A stretch of 64,000 nt of DNA from Salinivirga cyanobacteriivorans (lineage in GTDB: Bacteria > Bacteroidota > Bacteroidia > Bacteroidales > Salinivirgaceae), in the NCBI RefSeq assembly GCF_001443605.1, contig NZ_CP013118.1, positions 4,613,001-4,677,000 on the forward strand, read 5' to 3'. The first letter of the stretch is position 1. Each line of letters opens with the position of its first letter. The notes below the pieces were generated by a model that was given only the letters and a program-made list of their open reading frames with translations, did not search any database and was not told the DNA's origin. The position numbers were made by a program, and so were the translations under genes. This document shows, piece after piece, positions 1 through 58,998 of this stretch.

Positions 1-28
1 TGTTTTGGTTTGGGGTATTCAGTTTTAA
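1..28 (+). CDS. C-terminal end of a PP2C/SpoIIE-like phosphatase (partial, 5' end outside window)
   Basis: Base 1 is the last base of a codon. Bases 2-28 then read VLVWGIQF and a TAA stop. The same eight residues end the PAS-PP2C phosphatase whose stop is at 57573, and the DNA agrees at 35 of 36 positions with 57546-57581. I infer that a paralogous SpoIIE-like phosphatase ends here, converging on the minus-strand SiaC gene; the two stop codons overlap at bases 25-28. In characterised Sia systems a PP2C phosphatase (SiaA) dephosphorylates SiaC, so this neighbour fits functionally. Only nine codons are visible, so the assignment rests on the match to the second copy. Confidence 0.6.
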
Positions 29-399
29 ACCTTCTCAATTTCAAAATCTACATCCAGCATTTTCTGATAGCGTAATCCCGCATTATACATATCGAGATCG
101 GCCGCCTGGTATTTCCATATAATTTTCACCTGAGCTTTTTCAGAGAGTTTTTCCAGAAGAAAGAAAACCTTTGAAAGCTGTTTGGCTGTACTTGTCGAAA
201 AGTAATCAAGGTAAAAAATAAAGGTATTCTCAGGGTTTGGCTGGTCAATGTACTGGTTGAGCCAGTCAAAAATAGGCTGAAAAAATCCAACGGCATCCTC
301 TGGCAGGCTCTTTTCTGTAATCTCAAATTGGTTCTTCTCAGCATCAAAAATAACTCTTGGTGTATCTTTGGTGGCTTCAATATATAGAACAGGCATCAT
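25..399 (-). CDS. SiaC-family regulatory phosphoprotein (DUF1987), second copy
   Basis: This 124-residue cytoplasmic protein resembles the SiaC/DUF1987 family, small phosphoproteins that are phosphorylated by SiaB and dephosphorylated by a PP2C enzyme. The motif LDYFSTSTAK sits where SiaC carries its phosphorylated Thr. Two ATG codons are adjacent (399 and 396); starting at the second puts the motif Thr at residue 68, the position known for Pseudomonas SiaC, so 396 may be the true start. It lies two bases after the other SiaC gene and is probably co-transcribed with it and with the kinase gene. There is no signal peptide or membrane segment. The family call is from recognition of the motif and the neighbourhood. 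Confidence 0.8.
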   Translation of the reverse strand: MMPVLYIEATKDTPRVIFDAEKNQFEITEKSLPEDAVGFFQPIFDWLNQYIDQPNPENTFIFYLDYFSTSTAKQLSKVFFLLEKLSEKAQVKIIWKYQAADLDMYNAGLRYQKMLDVDFEIEKV

Positions 400-401
400 G
401 G

Positions 402-809
402 CTAATCGTAAATTATTTTAAAGTCATCACTATCTTCTTCAGGCTCTTCTTCAACCAGCTCGAAGTTTATTCCGGTAAGTCGGGCAAAACGTTTTCCGCT
501 CTCCAGCATGTCGGCATCGTCAGCGTAATAATGCCAAATTACTTTTAGCGAATATTTAATGGTTTCGAGCAAATTGAATATTTTACCCAGCTGCTTGGCC
601 GAGGCTGTATTGAAATAATCGAGTTTAATGTGCAGCTCTGTTTGTTCTGTAGGCTGCGTAATGTATTGTTCCAACCATTCATATACCGGTTTGTAAAAAT
701 CAAAAGCATTTTCAGGCAATGAGCGTTCCGAAATGCTAAAGGTATTTTTATCCTTATCCAGTATAATTTCAGGAGTGTCCTCTGTTGCTTTGCGTATAAG
801 TGGTTCCAT
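402..809 (-). CDS. SiaC-family regulatory phosphoprotein (DUF1987), first copy
   Basis: This 135-residue protein has the same fold signature as the next gene: an N-terminal KATEDTPEIILD segment, a central LDYFNTASAK motif and a C-terminal beta segment. Thr68 of the motif coincides with the phosphosite position of Pseudomonas SiaC. It differs from its neighbour by an acidic C-terminal tail (EEEPEEDSDD). The start codon overlaps the stop of the SiaB-like kinase gene by one base (TAATG), so translational coupling is likely. Two SiaC proteins beside one double kinase suggest that each may be the substrate of one kinase half; this is inference. Confidence 0.82.
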   Translation of the reverse strand: MEPLIRKATEDTPEIILDKDKNTFSISERSLPENAFDFYKPVYEWLEQYITQPTEQTELHIKLDYFNTASAKQLGKIFNLLETIKYSLKVIWHYYADDADMLESGKRFARLTGINFELVEEEPEEDSDDFKIIYD

Positions 810-1906
810 TAGTCCTTTATTGTTACTTCGATTGTGAAAAAGGTATATTTTTCACCTGTCTCTTTAAACGCATATTTCAGATTACTGTTACTTTTCATGC
901 GTAATTCTATGAGGCCGAGTCCAGATTCTTTGTTATTGTCAATCTGAAAATTGAAAAGCCGTTTATCATAAAACTCATTTAGCTCTTCATTGTTCAAATT
1001 GTTAACTTTATCAATATTTTCCTTGAGTGAATCAATTTTATCTGGTTTAATATAATTTCCTGTATGAAGCTTATAGCCGTTTTTAGAATATGAAATATAA
1101 AACAGTCCCGGATTACCTTCTTGCTTAATGGGCGATATTCCATGCTTAACAATATTTTGTAACAATTCTACCATAATATTGAATACCTTCTTTTTTAAAG
1201 CGGCCTGCCCGGCCATTTGGCTTTCAATAATTGATAACAGGTTGATAAGGCTCTCCTGGTTAAAAATTCCATTGAAGATAATGAGCACATTCTCTTTGTC
1301 TAACTGCTCATGCAGATCGAAAATATTGCCAAAATTCAGATGCGATTCATCGGAATTCACTGCGGCAAAATTATGTTTTATGTAGGTGCGCAAGTAAAAA
1401 TACGACCATTTATCATCGAGCTTTTTAAAGGCATACTGTAGTTTATTCCCTGATTTTCTGGCCATTTCAATTAACCCAAGCCCGGCACCACCTTTCTCAG
1501 AGAGCTCATTTTCCATGAGGGTCTTTTTGTAAAAATCTTTAAGCTCTTCTTTTTCCAGGCTATTGATTTTGTCCAGTTGGCTGGTTAGTTTTTTCTGATT
1601 CTCATTCAGGATTATGTTGGCCATGGTGATGTAATAAAATTCACCGCTCTGCTCTACGCCAAAGAAACTTTTCCATGTTCCGGTTTCGTCCTGGTGGCGG
1701 GTTATGTTTTGTAAGCCTTCGACCAAAATGGTATACACCCGCTTTTTAACTTTTACAGGTTCATTGGCTTTGGTAAGGTTGGTTTCTGTGAGCGCCAGTA
1801 TTCCATCGGTAATGCTTGCAGTTAAATCACCACGATAAAAATAACTTAGGCCTTCGGTATCCAGTATGTCATATATCTTAAAAGTTGTTTCCTGTTCAAG
1901 GGTCAT
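809..1906 (-). CDS. SiaB-family protein kinase, two fused copies (DUF6272 x2)
   Basis: SiaB proteins are GHKL-fold kinases that phosphorylate SiaC. This 365-residue protein holds two full copies. Copy 1 (about 1-180) has an N-box-like VEGLQN at 62-67 and a G-box GGAGLGL at 139-145. Copy 2 (about 190-365) has VELLQN at 246-251 and SGLGL at 328-332. Both copies begin with an IYD/IFDL-type segment and end with a YAFK...(Y/F)F beta pair, so this is an internal tandem duplication, about twice the usual family length. Both copies keep the nucleotide-binding signatures, so neither is obviously dead. It lies 61 bp downstream of dapF on the same strand and overlaps siaC by one base. No membrane segment is seen. 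Confidence 0.82.
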   Translation of the reverse strand: MTLEQETTFKIYDILDTEGLSYFYRGDLTASITDGILALTETNLTKANEPVKVKKRVYTILVEGLQNITRHQDETGTWKSFFGVEQSGEFYYITMANIILNENQKKLTSQLDKINSLEKEELKDFYKKTLMENELSEKGGAGLGLIEMARKSGNKLQYAFKKLDDKWSYFYLRTYIKHNFAAVNSDESHLNFGNIFDLHEQLDKENVLIIFNGIFNQESLINLLSIIESQMAGQAALKKKVFNIMVELLQNIVKHGISPIKQEGNPGLFYISYSKNGYKLHTGNYIKPDKIDSLKENIDKVNNLNNEELNEFYDKRLFNFQIDNNKESGLGLIELRMKSNSNLKYAFKETGEKYTFFTIEVTIKD

Positions 1907-4630: not shown

Positions 4631-5491
4631 ATGAGACAGTTAAAAATCACTAAATCAATCACGAATCGCGAAAGTGCGTCGTTGGATAAGTATCTTCAGG
4701 AGATAGGCCGCGAGGAGCTTATTACAGTTGAAGAAGAGGTGGAATTGGCCCAACGCATTAAAAAGGGGGACAGGGCAGCACTCGAAAAACTTACACGAGC
4801 CAATTTGCGTTTTGTGGTTTCTGTTGCTAAGCAGTATCAAAATCAGGGACTGAGCCTACCTGACCTTATTAATGAAGGTAATCTTGGTTTGATTAAAGCT
4901 GCTGAAAAATTTGATGAAACCAGAGGTTTCAAATTTATTTCCTATGCTGTTTGGTGGATTCGTCAGTCTATTCTGCAGGCACTGGCAGAACAGTCCAGAA
5001 TTGTTAGACTTCCATTAAACCAGGTGGGTTCATTGAACAAAATCAATAAAGCCTTTTCAAAATTTGAGCAGGAAAATGAACGTACACCATCACCGGAAGA
5101 ATTGGCCGACAAACTGGAATTGCCGAAAGAAAAAGTGAGCGATACATTGAAAGTATCAGGTAGACATGTATCTGTTGATGCACCATTTGTAGAAGGTGAA
5201 GATAACAGCCTGCTCGATGTACTCGAAAATCAGGACAGTCCTAAAGCCGACGGTAGCCTGATGAACGAATCGCTCGGAAGAGAAATCTTAAGGGCTTTGG
5301 CCACACTTACCGAAAGAGAACGCGACATTATTAAGTTGTTCTTTGGTATTGGTTGCCAGGAAATGACCCTGGAAGAGATTGGTGAGCGTTTTGGCCTGAC
5401 CCGCGAAAGGGTACGCCAGATCAAAGAAAAAGCAATCAGAAGATTGCGCCACACATCACGTAGTAAACTGCTGAAAGCTTACCTCGGGTAA
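4631..5491 (+). CDS. rpoD: Primary RNA polymerase sigma factor (sigma-70 family)
   Basis: This 286-residue sigma factor has the short architecture typical of Bacteroidota primary sigma factors: no long region 1.1, then region 1.2 ([14 protein letters not shown]), region 2 with the -10 recognition helix ([17 protein letters not shown]), region 3, and region 4 with a helix-turn-helix ([19 protein letters not shown]) that binds the -33 element. It is preceded by a TAnnTTTG promoter element and followed by a strong terminator, so it is its own transcription unit between htrA and htpG. Confidence 0.95.
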
Positions 5492-48324: not shown

Positions 48325-49452
48325 ATGAAAATAGGGCTTTTAAGGGAACCCGATTTTGAACACCGCGTGGCACTTTTGCCCGAGGCAGTTCAAAAGTTGG
48401 AAAAAAAGGGACACCAGGTTTTATTTGAGCCTGATGCGGGAGCCAAAGCCTTTGCCCCCGATTCCGCCTATACCGAAAATGGCGCCGTTGCCACAAAGCG
48501 GACAGATATATTAAAAAATGCCGAACTCATATTAACCATTCAACCACTGCCGGTCAAAGAGCTGGATCATTTGCAAAAAGGACAGGTTGTGGTTGGTGTA
48601 TACAATCCTTTGGTAAACAAAGAACTTGTAAATCAATTTAAAGAAAAAGGCCTTACATTATTAAGCCTCGACAATCTACCTCGAACCACGCGTGCTCAGG
48701 CCATGGATATTTTATCATCGATGGCCACCGTAGCCGGATACAAAAGTGTACTTGAGGCGGCCAACCGAGTACCGCGCTTTTTCCCCATGTTTATGTCGGC
48801 AGCCGGAACCATAAAACCTGCAAAAATGCTTATTCTCGGTGCAGGAGTAGCTGGTTTGCAGGCTATAGGCACAGCTCGCAAACTTGGTGCTGTGGTTGAG
48901 GTTTTCGATGTGCGTGCAGCTGTTAAAGAAGAGGTACAATCGCTCGGAGGCAAATTCATTGAGGTTGAAGGTGCCAAAGATGATAAAGATGCAGGAGGTT
49001 ATGCCGTAGAGCAATCAGATGATTTTAAAAACCGGCAGCAAGAGAAAATTCAGGAGCATGCCATTAAATCTGATGTCATTATTACAACCGCTCAAATACC
49101 CGGTAAGCCTGCTCCAAAGCTTATTACCAAAGCATCAATCGAGCAAATGAAACCCGGATCGGTCATCATCGATATTGCCGCATCAAGCGGAGGTAATACC
49201 GAACTTACCCAGGACAACAAAGTAGTGAACCACAATGGCGTAATGATCGTGGGTAACTCACAAATATCTTCAGATATGGCTGACGATGCATCCCGTATGT
49301 TTGGCAATAATGTCATCAACTTTCTGGAAATTCTCACTGGCGAAAACAGTGCGCTGAAACTTAATTTTGAAGACGACATCATTGCTGGTTGCACCATTAC
49401 CCATGAGGGAGATTTAATAAGTGAACGCATTCGAAAAGCATATAAAAATTAA
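48325..49452 (+). CDS. pntAA: NAD(P) transhydrogenase alpha subunit, part 1 (NAD-binding)
   Basis: This 375-residue soluble domain I of the proton-translocating transhydrogenase binds NAD(H). The N-terminal KIGLLREPDFEHRVALLPE block and the Rossmann motif LILGAGVAGLQAIGTARKLG are diagnostic. The second half of the alpha subunit is a separate gene 6 bp downstream, so this is the three-gene (split alpha) arrangement. Confidence 0.96.
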   Translation: MKIGLLREPDFEHRVALLPEAVQKLEKKGHQVLFEPDAGAKAFAPDSAYTENGAVATKRTDILKNAELILTIQPLPVKELDHLQKGQVVVGVYNPLVNKELVNQFKEKGLTLLSLDNLPRTTRAQAMDILSSMATVAGYKSVLEAANRVPRFFPMFMSAAGTIKPAKMLILGAGVAGLQAIGTARKLGAVVEVFDVRAAVKEEVQSLGGKFIEVEGAKDDKDAGGYAVEQSDDFKNRQQEKIQEHAIKSDVIITTAQIPGKPAPKLITKASIEQMKPGSVIIDIAASSGGNTELTQDNKVVNHNGVMIVGNSQISSDMADDASRMFGNNVINFLEILTGENSALKLNFEDDIIAGCTITHEGDLISERIRKAYKN

Positions 49453-49458
49453 ATTGAT

Positions 49459-49770
49459 ATGGAAGCTATTCTGGAATTTTTCTTTACCTATCGCGAAGCA
49501 ATTTTCATCATCATACTATCAATATTTCTTGGTATTGAAGTAATTTCCAATGTGCCGGCCGTATTGCACACGCCGCTTATGTCGGGTGCCAATGCCATTC
49601 ATGGTGTGGTAATAATCGGGGCCATTATTGTAATGGGTCATGCCGAAGAAACAATTGCCTTTATTCTGGGGTTTTTGGCCGTAGTGCTGGGTACGCTCAA
49701 TGTAGTAGGCGGATTTGTGGTAACCCATCGCATGTTGGATATGTTCAACAAAAAAAAGAAGAAACAATAA
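49459..49770 (+). CDS. pntAB: NAD(P) transhydrogenase alpha subunit, part 2 (membrane)
   Basis: This 103-residue membrane segment of the split alpha subunit has three to four helices (IFIIILSIFLGIEVISNVP, then HGVVIIGAIIVMGHAEE). Together with PntB it forms the proton channel. It lies 6 bp after pntAA and 43 bp before pntB, and its last residues are a Lys-rich tail. Confidence 0.94.
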   Translation: MEAILEFFFTYREAIFIIILSIFLGIEVISNVPAVLHTPLMSGANAIHGVVIIGAIIVMGHAEETIAFILGFLAVVLGTLNVVGGFVVTHRMLDMFNKKKKKQ

Positions 49771-49813
49771 ACGTAGTTAATCAACAGCTTGTTTAAAAGC
49801 CAAATCAAAAGGT

Positions 49814-51265
49814 ATGAACGAAGTATTTAAACTAACAGAAAATATATCATTTACACTTGGAGATGCATTGCTCGAGCTAATTTATGTAATTGCATCGGTG
49901 TTGTTTATTATAGGATTAAAAATGCTAAGTAGCCCCAAAACAGCCAAGCGCGGAAATCTTTGGGCTGCTTTGGGTATGGTAATGGCCATTATTGCCACCA
50001 TATCGCTGCATGAAATGGATGGCGAACCCATCAAAAATATAGGCTGGATCATTGGAGCCATAGCCCTTGGGACTGTTATAGGCTGGGCCATAGCAGTAAA
50101 GGTCAAAATGACCGCTATGCCACAGTTGGTCTCGTTTTTTAACGGAATGGGTGGTGCCAGTGCCGCACTAATATCGCTCATGGAATTTCCACATCTTGCC
50201 CATGGCAGTGCGCTTGTGGCAATGCATACCGGCGAAGTACTGGCCATTCTGCTTGGTTTAATGATCGGAAGTGTATCGTTTGCCGGTAGTATGATTGCCT
50301 TTGGAAAACTCGATGGCCGAATAAAAGATATTCGTGCTTCAGCGCTGCGTGTAATTAATCTCATATTTTTAGCTGTGCTCATCGGCTTTATTGTTTACAT
50401 TATGACACGCGGAGAAGCCAGTCCGGCAGAATTAATGCCTGCCATATATCTCATGTTGGCCATTAGTCTTATTTACGGAGTATCTTTTGTAATGCCAATT
50501 GGTGGAGCCGATATGCCCGTAGTTATTTCACTGCTGAACTCATTTACAGGAGTTGCCGCAGCTATGGGTGGTTTTCTTTATGATAATCAGGCCATGCTTA
50601 CCGGAGGTATACTGGTTGGTTCGGCCGGTACCATACTCACCATTTTAATGTGTCGTGCCATGAACCGTTCGCTTACCAATGTGATTTTAGGTGCATTTGG
50701 TGGCGGTGGAGCAGCTGCAGGACAGGAAGGCGGTACAGTAAAAGAAATATCGCTGAGCGATGCCGCTGTGCTGCTCAACTATTCGCAAAAGATATACATT
50801 ATTCCCGGTTATGGATTGGCCGTTGCACAGGCACAGCACCTTGTGAACGAAATGTCGAAAATGCTCGAGCGCAATGGGGTAGAAGTGAAGTTTGGTATTC
50901 ACTCAGTTGCCGGCCGCATGCCCGGACACATGAATGTGCTGCTTGCTGAGGCAGATGTGCCATACGAAAAACTCATAGAAGAGCGCGATGCCAGCGAAGA
51001 AATGTCATCGACCGATGTGGCTGTGGTTATTGGTGCCAATGATGTGGTAAACCCAGCTGCTGAAGAAGATCCCTCAAGTCCCATTTATGGAATGCCCATA
51101 ATACGTGCCGGACAGGCCAAAAACATCATTGTAATGAAACGTGGAATGGGAAAAGGATATGCTGCCATCGAAAACAGCCTTTTCTACAACGATAAAACAA
51201 GAATGCTCTTTGGTAATGCCAAAGATTCGCTGCAAAAACTGATAGAAGAGATCAAAGCATTGTAG
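49814..51265 (+). CDS. pntB: NAD(P) transhydrogenase beta subunit
   Basis: This 483-residue subunit has about nine N-terminal membrane helices and a C-terminal NADP(H)-binding domain III (about 300-483; IIPGYGLAVAQAQHLVNEM, HSVAGRMPGHMNVLLAEA and the GANDVVNPAA loop). The complex uses the ion gradient to make NADPH from NADH. It is the last gene of pntAA-pntAB-pntB, followed by a strong hairpin. Confidence 0.97.
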   Translation: MNEVFKLTENISFTLGDALLELIYVIASVLFIIGLKMLSSPKTAKRGNLWAALGMVMAIIATISLHEMDGEPIKNIGWIIGAIALGTVIGWAIAVKVKMTAMPQLVSFFNGMGGASAALISLMEFPHLAHGSALVAMHTGEVLAILLGLMIGSVSFAGSMIAFGKLDGRIKDIRASALRVINLIFLAVLIGFIVYIMTRGEASPAELMPAIYLMLAISLIYGVSFVMPIGGADMPVVISLLNSFTGVAAAMGGFLYDNQAMLTGGILVGSAGTILTILMCRAMNRSLTNVILGAFGGGGAAAGQEGGTVKEISLSDAAVLLNYSQKIYIIPGYGLAVAQAQHLVNEMSKMLERNGVEVKFGIHSVAGRMPGHMNVLLAEADVPYEKLIEERDASEEMSSTDVAVVIGANDVVNPAAEEDPSSPIYGMPIIRAGQAKNIIVMKRGMGKGYAAIENSLFYNDKTRMLFGNAKDSLQKLIEEIKAL

Positions 51266-51288
51266 TCCATTGAAAAAACTATATTTTA

Positions 51289-51337
51289 ATGCGCAACAAT
51301 AGCCGGCTTTCGGGCTTGTTCTTGTTGCGCATTTTTA
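51289..51337 (+). terminator. Terminator of the pnt operon
   Basis: An 11-bp stem ATGCGCAACAA/TTGTTGCGCAT (51289-51299 with 51322-51332) has an inner AGCC/GGCT-type arm and a T-rich tail. Confidence 0.82.
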
Positions 51338-51450
51338 AATTAAGCCCATTCTTTTTACAACTAATACCGATTTAAAGTGTCTAAATTTATGATGGCAATG
51401 TTTTTTTAATGAAGTTTTATTGATAATAATCTTATACAACTCCATAATTG

Positions 51451-51472
51451 ATAACCTTTTGGAAAAGGTTAT
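51451..51472. promoter_or_regulatory. Perfect palindrome upstream of nfo, possible operator
   Basis: ATAACCTTTT (51451-51460) and its exact complement AAAAGGTTAT (51463-51472) are two bases apart, about 50 bases before the nfo ATG. There is no T run, so an operator is more likely than a terminator. The protein that might bind it is not known. Confidence 0.45.
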
Positions 51473-51523
51473 TGAATAACAGGGCCATCCGTAGAAAAAA
51501 ATATCAATACTAAATATAGTAAA

Positions 51524-52363
51524 ATGAAATACATAGGTGCACATGTAAGCGCAGCCGGAGGTGTAGAAAATGCGCCAGACAACGCAGCAGCAATAGGCGC
51601 AACAGCTTTTGCGCTTTTTACAAAAAACCAACGACAATGGCAAGCCAAACCGCTTAGCGATAAAAATATTGAAGGTTTTAAAGCCCGTTGCGAAGCATTG
51701 GGGTATGGTGCCGGACAAATTTTACCACACGACAGCTATCTCATAAATCTTGGGCACCCCGAGGCAGCGGGGCTTGAGAAATCGCGCAATGCTTTTTTAG
51801 ATGAAATGCAACGTTGTGAGCAGTTGGGCATCGACAGGTTAAATTTTCATCCCGGTTCGCATCTTAAAAAAACATCAGTTACGGCCTGCCTTAGTACTAT
51901 AGCAGAATCGGTCAACCTGGCCCTTGAAAAAACAAACGGCGTTACAGCTGTTATAGAAAATACTGCAGGCCAGGGCACAAACCTCGGGTATAGTTTCGAA
52001 CAAATAACTGAAATTATTGACCAGGTCGAAGATAAAACAAGGGTAGGAGTGTGTATCGATACCTGCCATGGTTTTGCAGCTGGTTACGATTTTAGTACGG
52101 CCGATGGTTACGATAAGCTATGGAAAGAGTTCGAAGATTTTATAGGATTCCAGTACCTCAAAGGCATGCACCTGAACGATGCTAAAAAGGAACTCGCCAG
52201 TCGCGTTGATCGCCATGCCCCGCTGGGCGAAGGTTTTATTGGCGCTAAAGGCTTTGAGCGTATCATGAATGATTCACGAATAAAAAATATCCCGCTAATA
52301 CTGGAAACACCAGAGCCGGAGCGTTGGAATGCGGAAATTAAAATGCTGAAAGAAATGATATGA
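51524..52363 (+). CDS. nfo: Endonuclease IV
   Basis: This 279-residue Zn-dependent AP endonuclease acts in base excision repair. The N-terminal [16 protein letters not shown] block, the NFHPGSHL and IENTAGQG segments, [13 protein letters not shown] and the C-terminal LILETPEPE contain the metal ligands. It is 72 bp upstream of the propeller-PP2C gene; co-transcription is possible. Confidence 0.97.
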
Positions 52364-52435
52364 TAATTCTCCACTTTATTATTGGCCGGAGGTTCTTTAG
52401 AATAGCCATTTTTTATTATTTTTAAAGAAAAAAGA

Positions 52436-55400
52436 TTGAATCGTCTCCTTATAGTCATATCAACGCTATTTATTTTTCAGATAACTTCAGCCAATTCGCT
52501 ACTGGAGAAGGGATTTCCGTATATACGTAATTTCGATCTTTCCGATCTGAGCAGCAATTTGCAAAATTGGATGTCGGTACAAACACCAAATGGTTATATT
52601 TATGTGGCCAATAGCTCACGCCTTTTCGAATTCGATGGACTGAACTGGAATACATATTCATTGCCGAATAACAGTGCCTTGCGCGCTTTGGAAACTGATA
52701 CTTCTGGCCGGGTCTATGTGGGGGGGACACGCGAGTTTGGCTATTTCTATCCCGATCAATATGGTCGGTTAAACTATTACTCACTTTCAGATCAACTCGA
52801 TACGATCGATTTTGAATCGGTGTGGCGCGTGTTGAAAACTTCAAACGGCATTTATTATGTGGCAGGACGCAAACATATTTTCAAATATACCAATACCCGG
52901 CTACAAATGGTCGTAGCCCCACCCGCAATTGGCGATTTCAGGGCATCGGTTATCAATGATGAAATTCTGTTTTATGATGTGAATGCCGGCTTCGGAAAAG
53001 TTGTAAACGATACCATGCGCGTATACCGCGACGCCCTTTTACCGCCTGACCACACGGTCTATTTTTTTATGCCCGGAAAAACCAATAATATCATTGCCGG
53101 AGTGCGCCAACAAGGGTTATTTCACTATACACCGCAAACAAAACTTATTTCATGGGAAGCATCCCTTAAATTGTCCAAAGAAAATATAAAATATAATTCG
53201 GTGGGGCCTGCAGGCAATCATTGGATAAAACCAGTGTCTGGAGAACTAAACAGGTTGCTTAAAAAAGCCGTTACCTATTATGCTGTCAGCCATAAACACA
53301 ATTATTACATTGCCACCTTGCGAAAGGGCCTTATAATTGTCGATCATGAGTTTAATATAATCAACAATTACCGTAAAAAATACGGTATTACAAGCGATGC
53401 AGTATACCACATACAGGTCGATAAACAAGAAAACCTGTGGCTTACTGGCGAAATGGGACTCTCTTTTGTACGTTACAGACATCCGTTTCGCTATTTCGAT
53501 GAATTGAATAAAATAAATGGCGTTACCATCTCGGTTAAATCATATCGCAATGAGGTTTTCCTTGGAACCACGCAAGGCCTTTTTTCTATCACTCAGAATA
53601 AGGGGCGCTTTGGATATATTCACGATTTATATCTCGTTACCGATGAATATACCTATGTGCTCGATATTGAACCAATACCAAACCATCCCGATAACCTCAT
53701 ATTTAGTAGCTTACGCGACATCGTTTTGCTCAACCATAAGACCGGCAGGGTGCAGTCAATTGCATCATTTTACGGAACCTATGATGTTGAAAAAGTCCCG
53801 TTTGCCGATGACATATTTCTACTGGGGCACACAGAAGGAATTGGAGCCATAAAATTGAAAATAAATTCCCACGGAACTGCTGTGGCAAAGCGGCTTCACA
53901 GCTTTCAAAACTTTGAAGAAAATGTCAGGAAAATGGTATTTGACAATGAAAAAAGGTTGTGGGTAACTACAGGCTACAACGGGGTCTTCAGACTTGACCT
54001 TGATGCAAATTTACAGGTGCAGTCCATAAAAAAATACAGCAAGGCCAATGGACTACCCTTCAATGATAAAAATGTACCCTATTTTACAGACGATACCCTT
54101 TTTATGGCCACAAGGGCAGGAGTAATGTGGTATGATAAGCGTACCGAAACTTTTAAACCATATGCTGACCTTTATGAAGCGCCTGTATTTGATACTGTTA
54201 TGATCAATACTGTGCTGCCTACAGCAGATAAAATCTGGTTTGGACTTAATAAAGGCGTTATGTATTTCGACAGAATCAATCGCCGCATTGAAAAAACCGC
54301 TTTTCGCAGATTATCAAATCATGGTACCGAAGGGATCGATAAAGATGAAAATGGCAACATTTGGCTGGCCAGTTTAAATCAGGCCATTGCCATCGATACC
54401 ACTTTCCTTTTTGAACAATATATGAAGGTGCCCCTGATGTTCCGAAAGGTGACCTTCGGAGAAGATTCACTTATGGCGCTGCCCACTTTTAAAGTTTACC
54501 GCAGTAGTGCATTGAAGCTGGGTGAAATTCCTTTTAGCCACAATTCCCTGCAGGCGCAATTGGCGTGTCCCGCATACCAGTCGCTGGACGATATGCAGTT
54601 TTCTTATAAGCTAAAAGGATTGAGTAACAAATGGAGCGCCTGGAATAATGAAAGTACAATTGACTTTTCATATCTGCCCGGAGGCGAGTATCAATTAATC
54701 GTAAAAGCGCGTGATGCCAATAACCAGGTAATTGGTACAGCCAGCGCCCGGTTTTCCATTGCTCCACCATATTACCTCACAGCATGGGCAATCGCAATTT
54801 ATATTGTTTTGGCTGCCTTAATTATTTATGCTGCCATTCATTTTAATAGCAGGAGACTCCAGTCTGATAAGAAAAAGCTGCAAAAACGTATTAATGATGC
54901 AATTGCAACTGTGCAACAACAAAAAGAAGAGCTTGAACTGCAAACGCAACATCTGGCAATAACCAATAAAGAACTCGAAAAGTTGTCCATTGTTGCAGAA
55001 TATACCGATAATGCAGTGGCCATAATGGATGGTAAAGGCTACTATCAGTGGATCAATAAGGGCTTTACCCGCATGTATGGCTATGAGTTTGATGAGCTTT
55101 TACAGGACCAGGACAGGGAAAAGATCGGTAAACATGCAAACCTCAGAATGAACGATTTAATAAACATCTGGTTTGGTGATAAAAAACCCATTATTTATGA
55201 ATCGCTCAATAAATGTAAAGACGGTTCTGAAATATGGGTACAAACAGCACTGACACCAATTCTCGATAGTGAAGGTAATGTAGACAAGCTTATTACCATC
55301 GATACCGATATACGAAAACTTAAAGAGGCAGAGCAAGAAATTCAGCAACAGCGCGATGAAATACGCAGTCAGAGAGATATTGCAGTAAAACAACGCGATG

Positions 55401-56176
55401 AAATCAGGCAACAGAAGCAGGAGATTACAGACTCCATTCATTATGCCCAACGTATACAAGAAGCTTTATTCCCATCAACACAAACACTTTCGAAGGTGTT
55501 TAAAGAGAATTTTGTATTCGATTTGCCCCGCGATATTGTGTCCGGCGACTTTTATTGGGTGCACCAAAGTGATGATGTTGCTTTGCTGGCCGTGGCCGAT
55601 TGTACCGGACACGGAGTACCGGGCGCTTTTATGAGCCTCATCGGGTTAAACTTTTTGAACGAAATTGTTATTTCTGAAGGCATCAAACAGCCCGATAAGG
55701 TGCTGAATAGCCTCAGAACTAAAATAATAAATGCACTACGACAATCAAGTCGTGTAGGTGATAACAAAGATGGGATGGATATTGCCCTCATAAGCTATGA
55801 TGCCAACAAACGCAAGCTTAGCTATGCCGGAGCCAATAATGTAGCTCTGGTTAAACGCAATGAAGAGCTTATTGAACTGGAACCCGATAAAATGCCCATA
55901 AGTATTTTCAGAGATATTCAAATACCTTTTAAACTGAAATCGTTAGAAACCAAACCTGGCGATATGCTTTACATGTTCAGCGATGGCTATACCGATCAGT
56001 TTGGGGGTACAAAAGGAAAGAAATTCAAAACGGTTAATTTCAGAAAACTGATATTAACCTTGCCACAGCATGACCTTGAAAAACAAGAGCACATGGTGGT
56101 TGAGCGTTTTAAATCCTGGAAAGGAGATACTGATCAAATTGATGATGTATTGGTTGTAGGAGTCAAGTTGGTTTAA
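52436..56176 (+). CDS. Propeller-PAS-PP2C (SpoIIE-like) sensor phosphatase
   Basis: This 1246-residue membrane sensor starts at a TTG codon that begins a clear signal peptide (NRLLIVISTLFIFQITSANS); no better in-frame ATG is near. A periplasmic beta-propeller region runs to about 700, then a Y_Y_Y-like domain (to about 778), one membrane helix (about 780-802), a coiled coil, a PAS domain (about 850-965), a second coiled coil rich in Gln/Glu, and a SpoIIE-type PP2C domain (about 998-1246). Metal-binding Asp motifs are intact: SGDFYW, ADCTGHGVPGAFMS, DGMDIAL, FSDGYTDQ and QIDDVLVVGV. It should dephosphorylate a Ser/Thr-phosphorylated partner in the cytoplasm. SiaC-like proteins are candidates. 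Its stop overlaps the next start. Confidence 0.9.
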   Translation: MNRLLIVISTLFIFQITSANSLLEKGFPYIRNFDLSDLSSNLQNWMSVQTPNGYIYVANSSRLFEFDGLNWNTYSLPNNSALRALETDTSGRVYVGGTREFGYFYPDQYGRLNYYSLSDQLDTIDFESVWRVLKTSNGIYYVAGRKHIFKYTNTRLQMVVAPPAIGDFRASVINDEILFYDVNAGFGKVVNDTMRVYRDALLPPDHTVYFFMPGKTNNIIAGVRQQGLFHYTPQTKLISWEASLKLSKENIKYNSVGPAGNHWIKPVSGELNRLLKKAVTYYAVSHKHNYYIATLRKGLIIVDHEFNIINNYRKKYGITSDAVYHIQVDKQENLWLTGEMGLSFVRYRHPFRYFDELNKINGVTISVKSYRNEVFLGTTQGLFSITQNKGRFGYIHDLYLVTDEYTYVLDIEPIPNHPDNLIFSSLRDIVLLNHKTGRVQSIASFYGTYDVEKVPFADDIFLLGHTEGIGAIKLKINSHGTAVAKRLHSFQNFEENVRKMVFDNEKRLWVTTGYNGVFRLDLDANLQVQSIKKYSKANGLPFNDKNVPYFTDDTLFMATRAGVMWYDKRTETFKPYADLYEAPVFDTVMINTVLPTADKIWFGLNKGVMYFDRINRRIEKTAFRRLSNHGTEGIDKDENGNIWLASLNQAIAIDTTFLFEQYMKVPLMFRKVTFGEDSLMALPTFKVYRSSALKLGEIPFSHNSLQAQLACPAYQSLDDMQFSYKLKGLSNKWSAWNNESTIDFSYLPGGEYQLIVKARDANNQVIGTASARFSIAPPYYLTAWAIAIYIVLAALIIYAAIHFNSRRLQSDKKKLQKRINDAIATVQQQKEELELQTQHLAITNKELEKLSIVAEYTDNAVAIMDGKGYYQWINKGFTRMYGYEFDELLQDQDREKIGKHANLRMNDLINIWFGDKKPIIYESLNKCKDGSEIWVQTALTPILDSEGNVDKLITIDTDIRKLKEAEQEIQQQRDEIRSQRDIAVKQRDEIRQQKQEITDSIHYAQRIQEALFPSTQTLSKVFKENFVFDLPRDIVSGDFYWVHQSDDVALLAVADCTGHGVPGAFMSLIGLNFLNEIVISEGIKQPDKVLNSLRTKIINALRQSSRVGDNKDGMDIALISYDANKRKLSYAGANNVALVKRNEELIELEPDKMPISIFRDIQIPFKLKSLETKPGDMLYMFSDGYTDQFGGTKGKKFKTVNFRKLILTLPQHDLEKQEHMVVERFKSWKGDTDQIDDVLVVGVKLV

Positions 56177-57573
56177 TGATGTATATTTTTGCAAGCTACA
56201 TAAAAGTCTTTTTGTTACTGGCTGGCTTCCGCGATGTGAATGCCGGCTCTTATGTGGTATTGCTCATTGTTGTTTTGGTGGCGGCTATTGGTTATATTGC
56301 TTTTTTGCATAAACAGAATAGGGAGAAACAAGATCATATTGAGCATAAAAATCGCGAAATTAAACAGCTTACACACGAATTTAAGTTACTTTCCATATTG
56401 GCAAACGATACCGATAACCTGGTTGCCGTTACTAATGCTGAGGGGCAAATAGATTTTGCAAACCGCGTGTTTCGTGAGATTTTCGGAATAAGTCAAAAAG
56501 CAGATATCAGCTCAAAAAAAATATTTGATTTGCCAGGTTTTGAAAAAATATCTGAGGTTTTTCTGGAGAGCGTGCGTAAAAAAGCAAATACGCAAACGGA
56601 GTTTTTCATTTCTGCCGGTAAAGGCCATCGTTTCTGGCTGCAGATAACCATATCGCATGCAATTTTTCAAGCCGAACATAAGGTAATGGTGATTGCCACC
56701 AATATTAACGATTTAAAATTTGCCGAAGAAGAAATATCGCAACAAAGCGAAGAGCTTAAAGTGCAAAGTGAACAACTCGAAGCTATGAACACGGAGCTTG
56801 AGTATGTAAACCAGGTTACTACCGATAGCATTAACTATGCACAGCGCATTCAATATGCAATTCTACCCCGCCCTGATGATTATTTAAAGCACATCAACGA
56901 CAGTTTCGTAATGTTCAGGCCGCGCAACATTGTGAGTGGAGATTTTTACTGGTATGGCGAAATCGACGGGAAAGCCTTTTTTGTAGAAGCCGATTGTACC
57001 GGCCACGGTGTTCCGGGGGCTTTAATGGCAACCATTGGCAATACTTTGCTCAATGAAATTGTAGTAAGCGAAAAGCATAGTAATCCTGCCATTATACTTA
57101 AGGAACTGGATCGCAAAATTAAGTCAGTGTTACGGCAAGAGGCCGGGTTGCCCGATCAGCAAGATGGTATGGACATGGCACTGGCGCAGTTCGATTACGA
57201 AACCCGCGAATTGTCGGTGAGCATTGCCAACCAATTTGTGTTTTTCAGGCACAAAGGAGCATTAATTGAGTTAGAGGGCAGTTTATTTGCCATAGGTGGG
57301 TCAGATTTGCATACAAAGAAACCGGATTTTGATTTATACCGTTTTAAAGTCGAGCCGGGCGATGTGCTGTACCTGTTTAGCGATGGCTATCGCGATCAGT
57401 TTAAAGAAGAGGAGAAAGAAAAAATGATGTATCACCGTTTTAAAAATATTATGCAGGAGCTCGGGGAACATGATTTTTTAAAACAGAAAGCCTTGTTAGA
57501 AAAACGTTTCGATGAGTGGAAGGGCCGCAGTAGGCAAATCGACGATGTTTTGGTTTGGGGGATTCAGTTTTAA
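56176..57573 (+). CDS. PAS-PP2C (SpoIIE-like) phosphatase, membrane-anchored
   Basis: This 465-residue protein has an N-terminal membrane helix (about 24-42), coiled coil, PAS domain (about 70-185), coiled coil and PP2C domain (about 215-465). Metal-site motifs are intact: SGDFYW, ADCTGHGVPGALMA, DGMDMALAQ, FSDGYRDQF and QIDDVLVWGIQF. Its ATG overlaps the stop of the upstream phosphatase gene (TAATG), so the two are translationally coupled. The 3' end and 8 bases after the stop match bases 1-36 of the window except for one base, which marks it as a recent paralogue of the phosphatase next to the SiaB/SiaC genes. Confidence 0.9.
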   Translation: MMYIFASYIKVFLLLAGFRDVNAGSYVVLLIVVLVAAIGYIAFLHKQNREKQDHIEHKNREIKQLTHEFKLLSILANDTDNLVAVTNAEGQIDFANRVFREIFGISQKADISSKKIFDLPGFEKISEVFLESVRKKANTQTEFFISAGKGHRFWLQITISHAIFQAEHKVMVIATNINDLKFAEEEISQQSEELKVQSEQLEAMNTELEYVNQVTTDSINYAQRIQYAILPRPDDYLKHINDSFVMFRPRNIVSGDFYWYGEIDGKAFFVEADCTGHGVPGALMATIGNTLLNEIVVSEKHSNPAIILKELDRKIKSVLRQEAGLPDQQDGMDMALAQFDYETRELSVSIANQFVFFRHKGALIELEGSLFAIGGSDLHTKKPDFDLYRFKVEPGDVLYLFSDGYRDQFKEEEKEKMMYHRFKNIMQELGEHDFLKQKALLEKRFDEWKGRSRQIDDVLVWGIQF

Positions 57574-57742
57574 ACCTTCTCCTGTTTTGTGCACCACATC
57601 AACGCCCTAAAAATGCGCTACTGATTACCAGTCTGTTGTGAGTTTTAATTTGATGTTTTGGGTGATCCGTCCCATTTCGCTCAATAGAATTAAACTATGA
57701 TGCATAAATCCGGGCATCCATGATGAATGATTTCTCCATACC

Positions 57743-57831: not shown

Positions 57832-58998
57832 ATGATGTTTACAAAGAAACAAACAGAAGAAGTATTAAGCAAGTTTATTTCACGAGAAAATGGTCTTCAT
57901 GATGTAATGGAGATGGTCTTAAATGCAATGATGTATTCAGAACGGGAAGCCTTTCTGTCAGGAGCAAAAAGCAACAAGGGAAATGGTTACAGACCCCTAA
58001 GTGCCTTAGGTCATGGACACCAACTTGAGCTGCAAGTCCCTAGAGATCGCTTAAGTCAATTTACTCCAAAAATATTAGCTATATTTCGAGAACAAGAATC
58101 TTACTTAAAAGAAGTCTCCTTTAAGCTATATTCAAAAGGTTTAACCACGCGTGATATATCCTCAGTCATGGATACCATTTATGGCGGACATTATAGTAAA
58201 AGTAAGATTAGTGATATTAGTACCAGTTTTTATGATCAAATGCAAGCATGGAGAAACAGAGAACTGGACTCCCATTATCTTGCACTTTATATTGACGGCC
58301 TTCATGTAAAATTAAAAAGAGGAAATAAATATGAAACAGAATGTTTTTATATCATTCTTGGCTTGCGTGAAGATTTTAAGCGAGAAGTCATATCTATCGT
58401 TAATTTTCCCGTAGAATCAGCTAATTCATGGGAAATAATATTTGATCAAATCAAAGCAAGAGGAATAGAGACTGTTGGTATTATAATATCAGACGCTCTA
58501 AGCGGTATTGATAAGAGCATAGCAAAAAAATTTAGTTGCCCGCATCAGAAATGCATTTTACACTTGCAACGTAACCTATTAAGTTATGTCCGCATGAGTG
58601 ATAAAAAAGAGGTTGCTAATGACTTTAGAGAAGTTCTCAGTGCTGCTGATCCGCACCATAACAAAGCTATAGCTGTGTCAAAATTTAAAGAATTTAAAGA
58701 AAAATGGCGAACGAAATACAGGTCTTTTGGGCAATATCTTGATAACCTGGATATTTACCCATATTTAACCTTTTTAGATTACGATGTCAGAATACGTCGT
58801 ATGCTTTATACGACCAACTGGATAGAGCGATTTAATAAAAGCGCCAGAAGAACATTGAAAATAAGAGGTGCATTACCATCTGAAGAGGCAGTTCTATCAC
58901 TGATAACAAGTGTGGCAAAAGAACAAACAGAGGGTCATTACTCATATCCTATTTATAATTTTAGATATGAAGAAAAACTATTAGCAAACAAATATTAA
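57832..58998 (+). CDS. IS256-family (Mutator-type) transposase
   Basis: This 388-residue transposase is full length for the family. The catalytic residues are Asp155 (ALYIDGLHVK), Asp221 (IIISDALSG) and Glu332 (TTNWIERFNKSARR), with the conserved CPHQKCILHLQRN block between them. The N-terminal part contains the GHGHQLELQVPRDR motif typical of the family. It appears intact, unlike the IS4-type transposase in this window. Confidence 0.95.
   Translation: MMFTKKQTEEVLSKFISRENGLHDVMEMVLNAMMYSEREAFLSGAKSNKGNGYRPLSALGHGHQLELQVPRDRLSQFTPKILAIFREQESYLKEVSFKLYSKGLTTRDISSVMDTIYGGHYSKSKISDISTSFYDQMQAWRNRELDSHYLALYIDGLHVKLKRGNKYETECFYIILGLREDFKREVISIVNFPVESANSWEIIFDQIKARGIETVGIIISDALSGIDKSIAKKFSCPHQKCILHLQRNLLSYVRMSDKKEVANDFREVLSAADPHHNKAIAVSKFKEFKEKWRTKYRSFGQYLDNLDIYPYLTFLDYDVRIRRMLYTTNWIERFNKSARRTLKIRGALPSEEAVLSLITSVAKEQTEGHYSYPIYNFRYEEKLLANKY

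Follow-up and report, generated by a model that had tools for sequence, protein, structure and literature searches.

What does a Sia-type phosphoswitch with a doubled kinase and a doubled substrate act on, in a genome that yields no match to the GGDEF domain? The question is raised by a 64,000-nucleotide stretch of the Salinivirga cyanobacteriivorans genome (NZ_CP013118.1, positions 4,613,001 to 4,677,000; hereafter the window), whose left end encodes a double SiaB-family kinase and two SiaC-family proteins. In Pseudomonas aeruginosa, SiaB phosphorylates SiaC at Thr68 and SiaA reverses this (PMC7278518), and the Sia-type switches that we found in the literature are those of Pseudomonas, with cyclic di-GMP (c-di-GMP) as the output. 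We consider it likely that the locus encodes a partner-switching phosphoswitch of the Sia type, with one chain of two SiaB-type kinase halves in place of the SiaB homodimer. This reading rests on the domain content, the N-box in both halves, the grouping of the halves in a tree, the fusion or adjacency of SiaC in 67 of 80 loci, the acceptor threonine, and the synteny of SpoIIE genes in congeners. The source DNA is a single contig of 4,812,386 bases (a 4.81-Mb genome, 99.98% complete). Below, G000 is this genome, G001 and G002 are congeners, G001-G005 belong to the same family, and L numbers denote loci.

The 365-amino-acid (aa) protein encoded at 809-1906 (minus strand) contains two stretches matching PF19788 (DUF6272; E = 6.4e-68, 227 bits against a cut-off of 26.6), and matches the NCBIfam model SiaB_fam_kinase (NF038262), also in two stretches, with 246.8 bits against a cut-off of 85. 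The N-terminal half (residues 1-182; 1361-1906) and the C-terminal half (residues 183-365; 812-1360) are 30% identical over 174 aligned positions. In an AlphaFold2 model of the whole chain (predicted local distance difference test, pLDDT, 83.7; predicted template-modelling score, pTM, 0.81), the pTM suggests a defined mutual arrangement of the two halves. The best PDB match of the model was SiaB from the SiaB-SiaC complex (6kko_A; Z = 19.0, root-mean-square deviation 2.3, 165 aa), which fell on the C half (residues 191-363); since the search listed one row per PDB entry, there was no separate N-half row for 6kko. By sequence alignment, 6kko_A was the best match of the N half (total E = 6.1e-9).

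In GHKL kinases, the N-box Glu and Asn are catalytic. Both are kept in each half (E63/N67 and E247/N251), and both are present in 82/82 N halves and 82/82 C halves of the named tandem loci. In a set of 37 gathered by protein similarity, which shares genomes with the named set, Glu was found in 37/37 N and 36/37 C halves (one Asp) and Asn in 37/37 of both. The 80 named loci described below were retrieved with motif patterns that included GGAGLGLI and the N-box, which favours N-half conservation and the tandem form. The lid is GGAGLG in the N half and an altered KESGLG in the C half. Within the protein-similarity set, GGAGLG occurs in 35/37 N halves (the remaining two have GGASLG and SNASIG), while GGAG occurs in 2/37 C halves, whose first lid residue is Lys in 19/37, as in KESGLG; the C-half trend is alike in the 82-locus set.

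This asymmetry fits a somewhat doubtful alternative, that the N half is the only working kinase and the C half is degenerate, holding the dimer or sensing nucleotide. The long branch of 1.2 changes per column that leads to the C halves in our tree of halves also favours it. The near-universal N-box residues of the C halves and the structural match of the C half to SiaB argue the other way, and SpoIIAB is an active kinase also without the GG pair. In the tree of halves, a quick search of 25 of the 82 tandem loci and four single kinases of G000, the sampled C halves lie together on one side of a branch (Shimodaira-Hasegawa-like approximate likelihood-ratio test 99), as do the N halves (91), the pattern that a single old fusion would leave; long branches (two singles and L181_C) and the odd composition of L015_N were flagged. 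SiaB forms dimers (PMC7278518), so that a single-chain dimer with specialised halves is the simplest reading of the double kinase. A one-to-one assignment of halves to SiaCs would be guesswork.

The tandem kinase is widespread in Bacteroidota metagenome-assembled genomes (MAGs). Among 60 relatives searched (protein in 31), our own profiles gave at least 36 tandem ORFs (open reading frames) in at least 20 genomes; L117 has no domain call in this ORF set. A scan of named genomes gave at least 554 candidates, of which the best 80 were kept, all tandem; 50 have one SiaC directly downstream, 4 have two, 13 are in-frame kinase-kinase-SiaC fusions, and in 13 none was found. Because the kinase fusion occurs mostly with one SiaC and twin SiaC is rarer, twin SiaC was rejected as the counterpart of twin kinase. 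The nearest named relative among those listed is the Salinivirgaceae MAG BM715 (76% kinase identity). A model of a fused kinase-kinase-SiaC protein (L147; pLDDT 79.9, pTM 0.62) was too uncertain for a docking claim. In the PMC papers searched we found no description of the double kinase; DUF6272 and the SiaB/SiaC family names drew nothing there.

Other arrangements were seen as well. Unfused DUF6272 genes occur in the class two in a row (L245), three in a row (L239), and as kinase-SiaC twice over (L256), possible intermediates of fusion. The kinase-kinase-SiaC fusions of L147, L173, L176, and L161 are followed by a gene of 627-664 aa, which in L173 has an ion-channel domain; next after it comes polyphosphate kinase in L147 and L173 and a look-alike gene in L176.

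The two SiaC proteins, SiaC1 (135 aa; 402-809, minus strand) and SiaC2 (124 aa; 25-399, minus strand), match the SiaC profile PF09345 with 116.8 and 110.8 bits against a cut-off of 24.5, and SiaC1 aligns to the solved SiaC 6kko_C (E = 7e-10). All three ORFs therefore score above the profile cut-offs of DUF6272 and DUF1987 (the SiaC family), and the domain calls bear out the original prediction of a SiaB-like kinase of two fused copies, two SiaC-like proteins, and a Bacteroidota variant with kinase and substrate both duplicated. The coupling of the three genes that it had proposed is also seen: the kinase stop and the siaC1 start share the sequence TAATG, and siaC2 starts 2 nt past the siaC1 stop, so that co-translation appears likely.

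PMC7278518 and PMC7647112 give Thr68 as the phosphoacceptor of P. aeruginosa SiaC. This residue aligns with Thr68 of SiaC1 (motif DYFNTASAK) and Thr69 of SiaC2 (motif DYFSTSTAK), the predicted acceptors, and it is present in 6/6 SiaC1-type members of twin pairs (twin1; the SiaC2-type members are twin2). Asn67, Thr68, and Ser69 of SiaC contact SiaD (PMC8457831). In the named set, the Asn67 position is Asn in 6/6 twin1, 50/50 single-tandem, and 11/11 other own-genome SiaCs and in 10/12 readable fused SiaCs (the other two have Ser and Asp), and it is Ser in 6/6 twin2; the phosphosite is blank in one of the 13 fused rows. A set of relatives, which shares genomes with the named set, has Ser in 6/6 SiaC2 (G000 and G001-G005) and Asn in 31/31 other SiaC domains, including the independent pair of L120; one fused SiaC, that of L106, departs from the motif. 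The changed residue at a target-contact position suggests, short of proof, that SiaC2 has a target different from that of SiaC1.

It is unlikely that the two proteins are instead redundant dosage copies with the same target, their duplication having no logic of its own. Such redundancy would agree with the acceptor Thr in both SiaCs, with their place in one operon, with the doubled, unrelated-looking siaC of L120, which lacks the Ser, and with L125, whose pair is 54% identical and whose SiaC1 falls outside the other five twin1. It fits poorly with the divergence of the pair, 45% identical here and 39-54% over six pairs, with a SiaC tree in which twin2 forms one clade (100/93) and 5/6 twin1 group apart (94/86), and with the Ser of SiaC2, present in 6/6 in each set against Asn in all 31 other SiaC domains of the set of relatives. 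The same tree, which covers 25/50 single-tandem and 6/13 fused SiaCs (with L156_F 29% filled and L186_S on a long branch), splits the tandem-linked SiaCs from the other 11 own-genome SiaCs (90/97) with one exception, L190, and places the fused SiaC L151_F beside the twin2 clade (96/70).

Within G000, there are 13 SiaC matches and 6 DUF6272 domains in 5 genes. For eight of the SiaCs, the nearest four genes include no kinase gene, and one of these eight lies right after a sigma-54 response regulator (L022:7487-9048).

For the phosphatase, the original prediction had read the last nine codons of a PP2C gene converging on siaC2. Bases 2-28 do hold eight PP2C sense codons, followed by a stop codon overlapping that of siaC2, but what they close is a remnant of some 31 codons (L015:12935-13028) rather than a gene. 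The DNA left of the remnant is rich in repeats and has stops in each of the three forward frames, the next ORF (658 aa, ending 705 nt left of base 1) is of the beta-lactamase family, and the genome-wide SpoIIE search gave no match at the left edge of the window. These findings rule out a PP2C gene at that edge, and the adjacent phosphatase expected upstream fails in this genome.

The remnant spans 102 bp (L015:12935-13036), and its right end (1-36, plus strand) enters the last siaC2 codons. It is identical at 97/102 bases (95%) to window positions 57480-57581, and the intact gene there (56176-57573, plus strand) has the same terminal peptide. The match extends beyond the stop, the distant copy bearing 12 bp of the siaC2 end at 57570-57581. 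This intact gene encodes a 465-aa PAS-SpoIIE protein (phosphatase 2), the full-length version of the tail at base 1, and is preceded by a gene for a 1246-aa protein with Reg_prop, Y_Y_Y, PAS, and SpoIIE domains (phosphatase 1; 52436-56176, plus strand; both by Pfam).

In G001 and G002, the order is an endonuclease-IV-like gene, a SpoIIE gene (1243-1245 aa), a second SpoIIE gene (455-457 aa) that converges on siaC2, then siaC1, the double kinase, and dapF; in G002, transhydrogenase genes stand ahead of the endonuclease-IV-like gene. Elsewhere in the family, siaC2 is met by converging genes of the same cluster in G003 and G005 but not in G004. In the window, transhydrogenase genes, an endonuclease-like gene, and the two SpoIIE genes lie together at 48325-57573. 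Along its whole length, phosphatase 1 shares 57% identity with the protein encoded near siaC2 in G002 (1456 bits), and phosphatase 2 is 55.5% identical to the G002 protein adjoining siaC2 (501 bits), vs. 308 and 248 bits for the best other own-genome SpoIIE proteins; the comparison took in all 30 loci, with matches in 26. Taken together, the remnant, the carried siaC2 end, and the congener order indicate that the module is split in G000 by a rearrangement that left the phosphatase tail behind. The convergence on siaC2 thus holds in the congeners G001 and G002, with two SpoIIE/PP2C genes, whereas in the own genome the intact orthologues lie about 50 kb to the right.

Both displaced proteins keep the four PP2C motifs looked for (SGDFYW, DCTGHGVPG, SDGY, and DDVL), which appear to match the metal-site residues given for SiaA in PMC7647112, on a reading rather than an alignment. 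Across loci, SpoIIE genes make up 21/156 genes at the two positions immediately downstream of the unit vs. 7/507 elsewhere (Fisher p = 5e-9, the relatedness of loci being ignored). As 13 of the 30 seed loci went into the SpoIIE profile, SpoIIE counts may be too low.

At the left breakpoint, a dispersed repeat (L015:12600-12940) adjoins the remnant, with 40 scored genome matches, itself and partial ones included; partial copies also lie near a second siaC pair (L020:7141-7633). A Mutator-family transposase gene (57832-58998, plus strand; PF00872, 259.5 bits) starts 258 bp past the phosphatase gene and has 14 genome copies at 99-100% identity, and another of these copies adjoins the DUF6272-cyclase pair of G000 described below.

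In the phosphoswitch that we favour, the double kinase would use ATP to phosphorylate SiaC1-Thr68 and SiaC2-Thr69. In response to a signal, the two PAS-SpoIIE phosphatases, one of them with a sensor propeller, would take the phosphates off again, and the SiaCs in their unphosphorylated form would bind and switch their targets. Several observations weigh against it. The C-half lid is unlike that of the N half and of SiaB, and one active site may be dead; 13/80 loci have no SiaC beside the kinase; and SpoIIE lies within four genes downstream in only 14/80 loci and upstream in 4. The phosphatases are non-adjacent in the own genome, and in the comparison of G001-G005 no adjacent SpoIIE was found in the same-family genome G004. 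With 33 SpoIIE matches and 13 SiaCs in the own genome, cross-talk or other pairings are possible. Two phosphatases also stand beside single-SiaC units (L126, L128, L133, L142, and L144), which speaks against this arrangement too and led us to reject twin SiaC as the counterpart of twin phosphatase.

The likeness to SiaABCD of P. aeruginosa lies in a SiaB-type GHKL kinase, a SiaC-type protein with a Thr68 equivalent, and PP2C phosphatases that match the SiaA model. Unlike SiaABCD, the system here has a tandem-fused kinase, two SiaCs, and two non-adjacent phosphatases with other sensors; beside siaB/siaC there is no PP2C gene, the 102-bp remnant excepted, although such genes are adjacent in G001 and G002. 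All components also score below the equivalog cut-offs of the P. aeruginosa models: 146.9 and 166.7 bits against 700 for the SiaA model over the two phosphatase domains, 111.5 against 225 for SiaB (NF038264), and 69.4 and 56.6 against 150 for SiaC (NF038265). As no GGDEF match, and hence no SiaD, is found in the genome, SiaABCD as defined by its diguanylate cyclase is, judging by sequence, not present here.

The original prediction had noted no diguanylate cyclase nearby, and this extends to the whole genome: GGDEF gave zero matches in the 4.81-Mb genome and in 20/20 tandem-bearing relatives, the same search being positive in 8/14 control genomes. On this search we rejected a diguanylate cyclase, near or far. 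The Sia-type switches of these 21 genomes probably act on other targets, and the target here is probably no GGDEF cyclase, which argues against the Pseudomonas output. The STAS regulators of the diguanylate cyclases HsbD and BgrR (cited in PMC8457831) are comparable in having a phosphorylatable STAS-like protein that binds an enzyme directly; the locus differs from them in its SiaC (DUF1987) rather than STAS family and, again, in the missing GGDEF match.

Class III nucleotide cyclases offer another output. PF00211 has 5 matches in the own genome and is found in 19/20 tandem-bearing relatives, the same genomes in which GGDEF is missing. In G000 and G001-G004, a gene for a cyclase of about 1300 aa comes immediately after a single DUF6272 gene; in G000 (G000:C1:1236256-1240944; L016:4257-8945), the single kinase is followed by a 1302-aa Reg_prop-YYY-PAS-class III cyclase. 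In L229 (G023), a DUF6272 gene precedes a 553-aa cyclase gene, in L151 a receiver-cyclase is encoded two genes downstream of a kinase-kinase-SiaC fusion, and L216 is cut off by its contig end within a gene whose start resembles a cyclase gene. The cyclase profile was built from 1 seed at first and then from 5 (5 for the 80-locus scan). This pairing in paralogous modules is a lead for the output.

That the output of the window's own unit is a class III cyclase making cyclic AMP or cyclic GMP, rather than c-di-GMP, is nevertheless distinctly unlikely. Neither a cyclase nor a TerB-ABC gene adjoins the unit, a cyclase occurs in 1/80 tandem loci, and only 1 of the 5 own-genome cyclases stands beside a kinase gene. 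The five same-family cases count as one inheritance, the cyclase-linked single kinases have no adjacent SiaC, and G014 (88% complete) has a tandem kinase and no PF00211 match. The wider scheme, a c-di-GMP-free Sia branch in which a two-headed kinase sets two SiaCs diverged at the target-contact residue, with one sensor input and two outputs of which at least one is a class III nucleotide cyclase, would be improbable as a whole. In G022, a class III cyclase match (C313:12213-12755) lies about 6 kb beyond a tandem-kinase-SiaC unit (C313:4641-6173) on the same contig.

A second type of module (Module A) in the own genome (L017:5816-12545) and in L217-L220, L222-L224, L226, L230, and L231 consists of SpoIIE, DUF6272, SiaC, and a TerB/ABC/ABC2 protein of 1014-1080 aa (cut at 787 aa in L222), with calls by Pfam for L017 and by our own profile for the other loci. 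Found in the own genome and the order, it shares the three switch components, encoded on one strand in the same order. It differs from the window's unit in its single kinase, single SiaC, and the TerB-ABC protein behind them, which may be the output partner of Module A.

By analogy with RsbW/RsbV, SiaC1 and SiaC2 could also be anti-sigma antagonists in a sigma-factor partner switch, which we regard as very improbable. The kinase halves share the fold of SpoIIAB, RsbW, and UsfX (Z = 10-12.5), and SiaC structurally resembles an anti-sigma antagonist (PMC7647112). RsbW/RsbV and SpoIIAB/SpoIIAA also have in common with this system a STAS-like substrate phosphorylated at a helix start and a SpoIIE-type phosphatase, and differ from it in that no sigma factor lies in the unit and the kinase sequence is of the SiaB family. 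Just one sigma-70 gene was seen nearby (4631-5491); it is separated from the unit by dapF and a further gene and is presumably the housekeeping type of Bacteroidota.

The interest of the Sia-type phosphoswitch lies in its widespread double kinase, its diverged twin SiaCs, and the missing c-di-GMP output. With 13 SiaC matches, 5 SiaB-family genes, 33 SpoIIE matches, and zero GGDEF matches in the own genome, targets other than c-di-GMP enzymes are probable. For structural work, the double kinase supplies naturally occurring single-chain dimers and kinase-SiaC fusions, and the twin SiaCs allow a direct test of whether a change beside the phospho-Thr re-aims the switch. The cyclase-linked paralogues make the output question testable, with five candidate enzymes in the own genome.

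Transcription on the minus strand runs from dapF (1968-2747; diaminopimelate epimerase family, PF01678, 143.7 bits) through the kinase gene and siaC1 to siaC2. dapF lies 61 nt upstream of the kinase gene and is the probable first gene of the operon, and a gene of the dapF cluster precedes the kinase in 5/5 of G001-G005.

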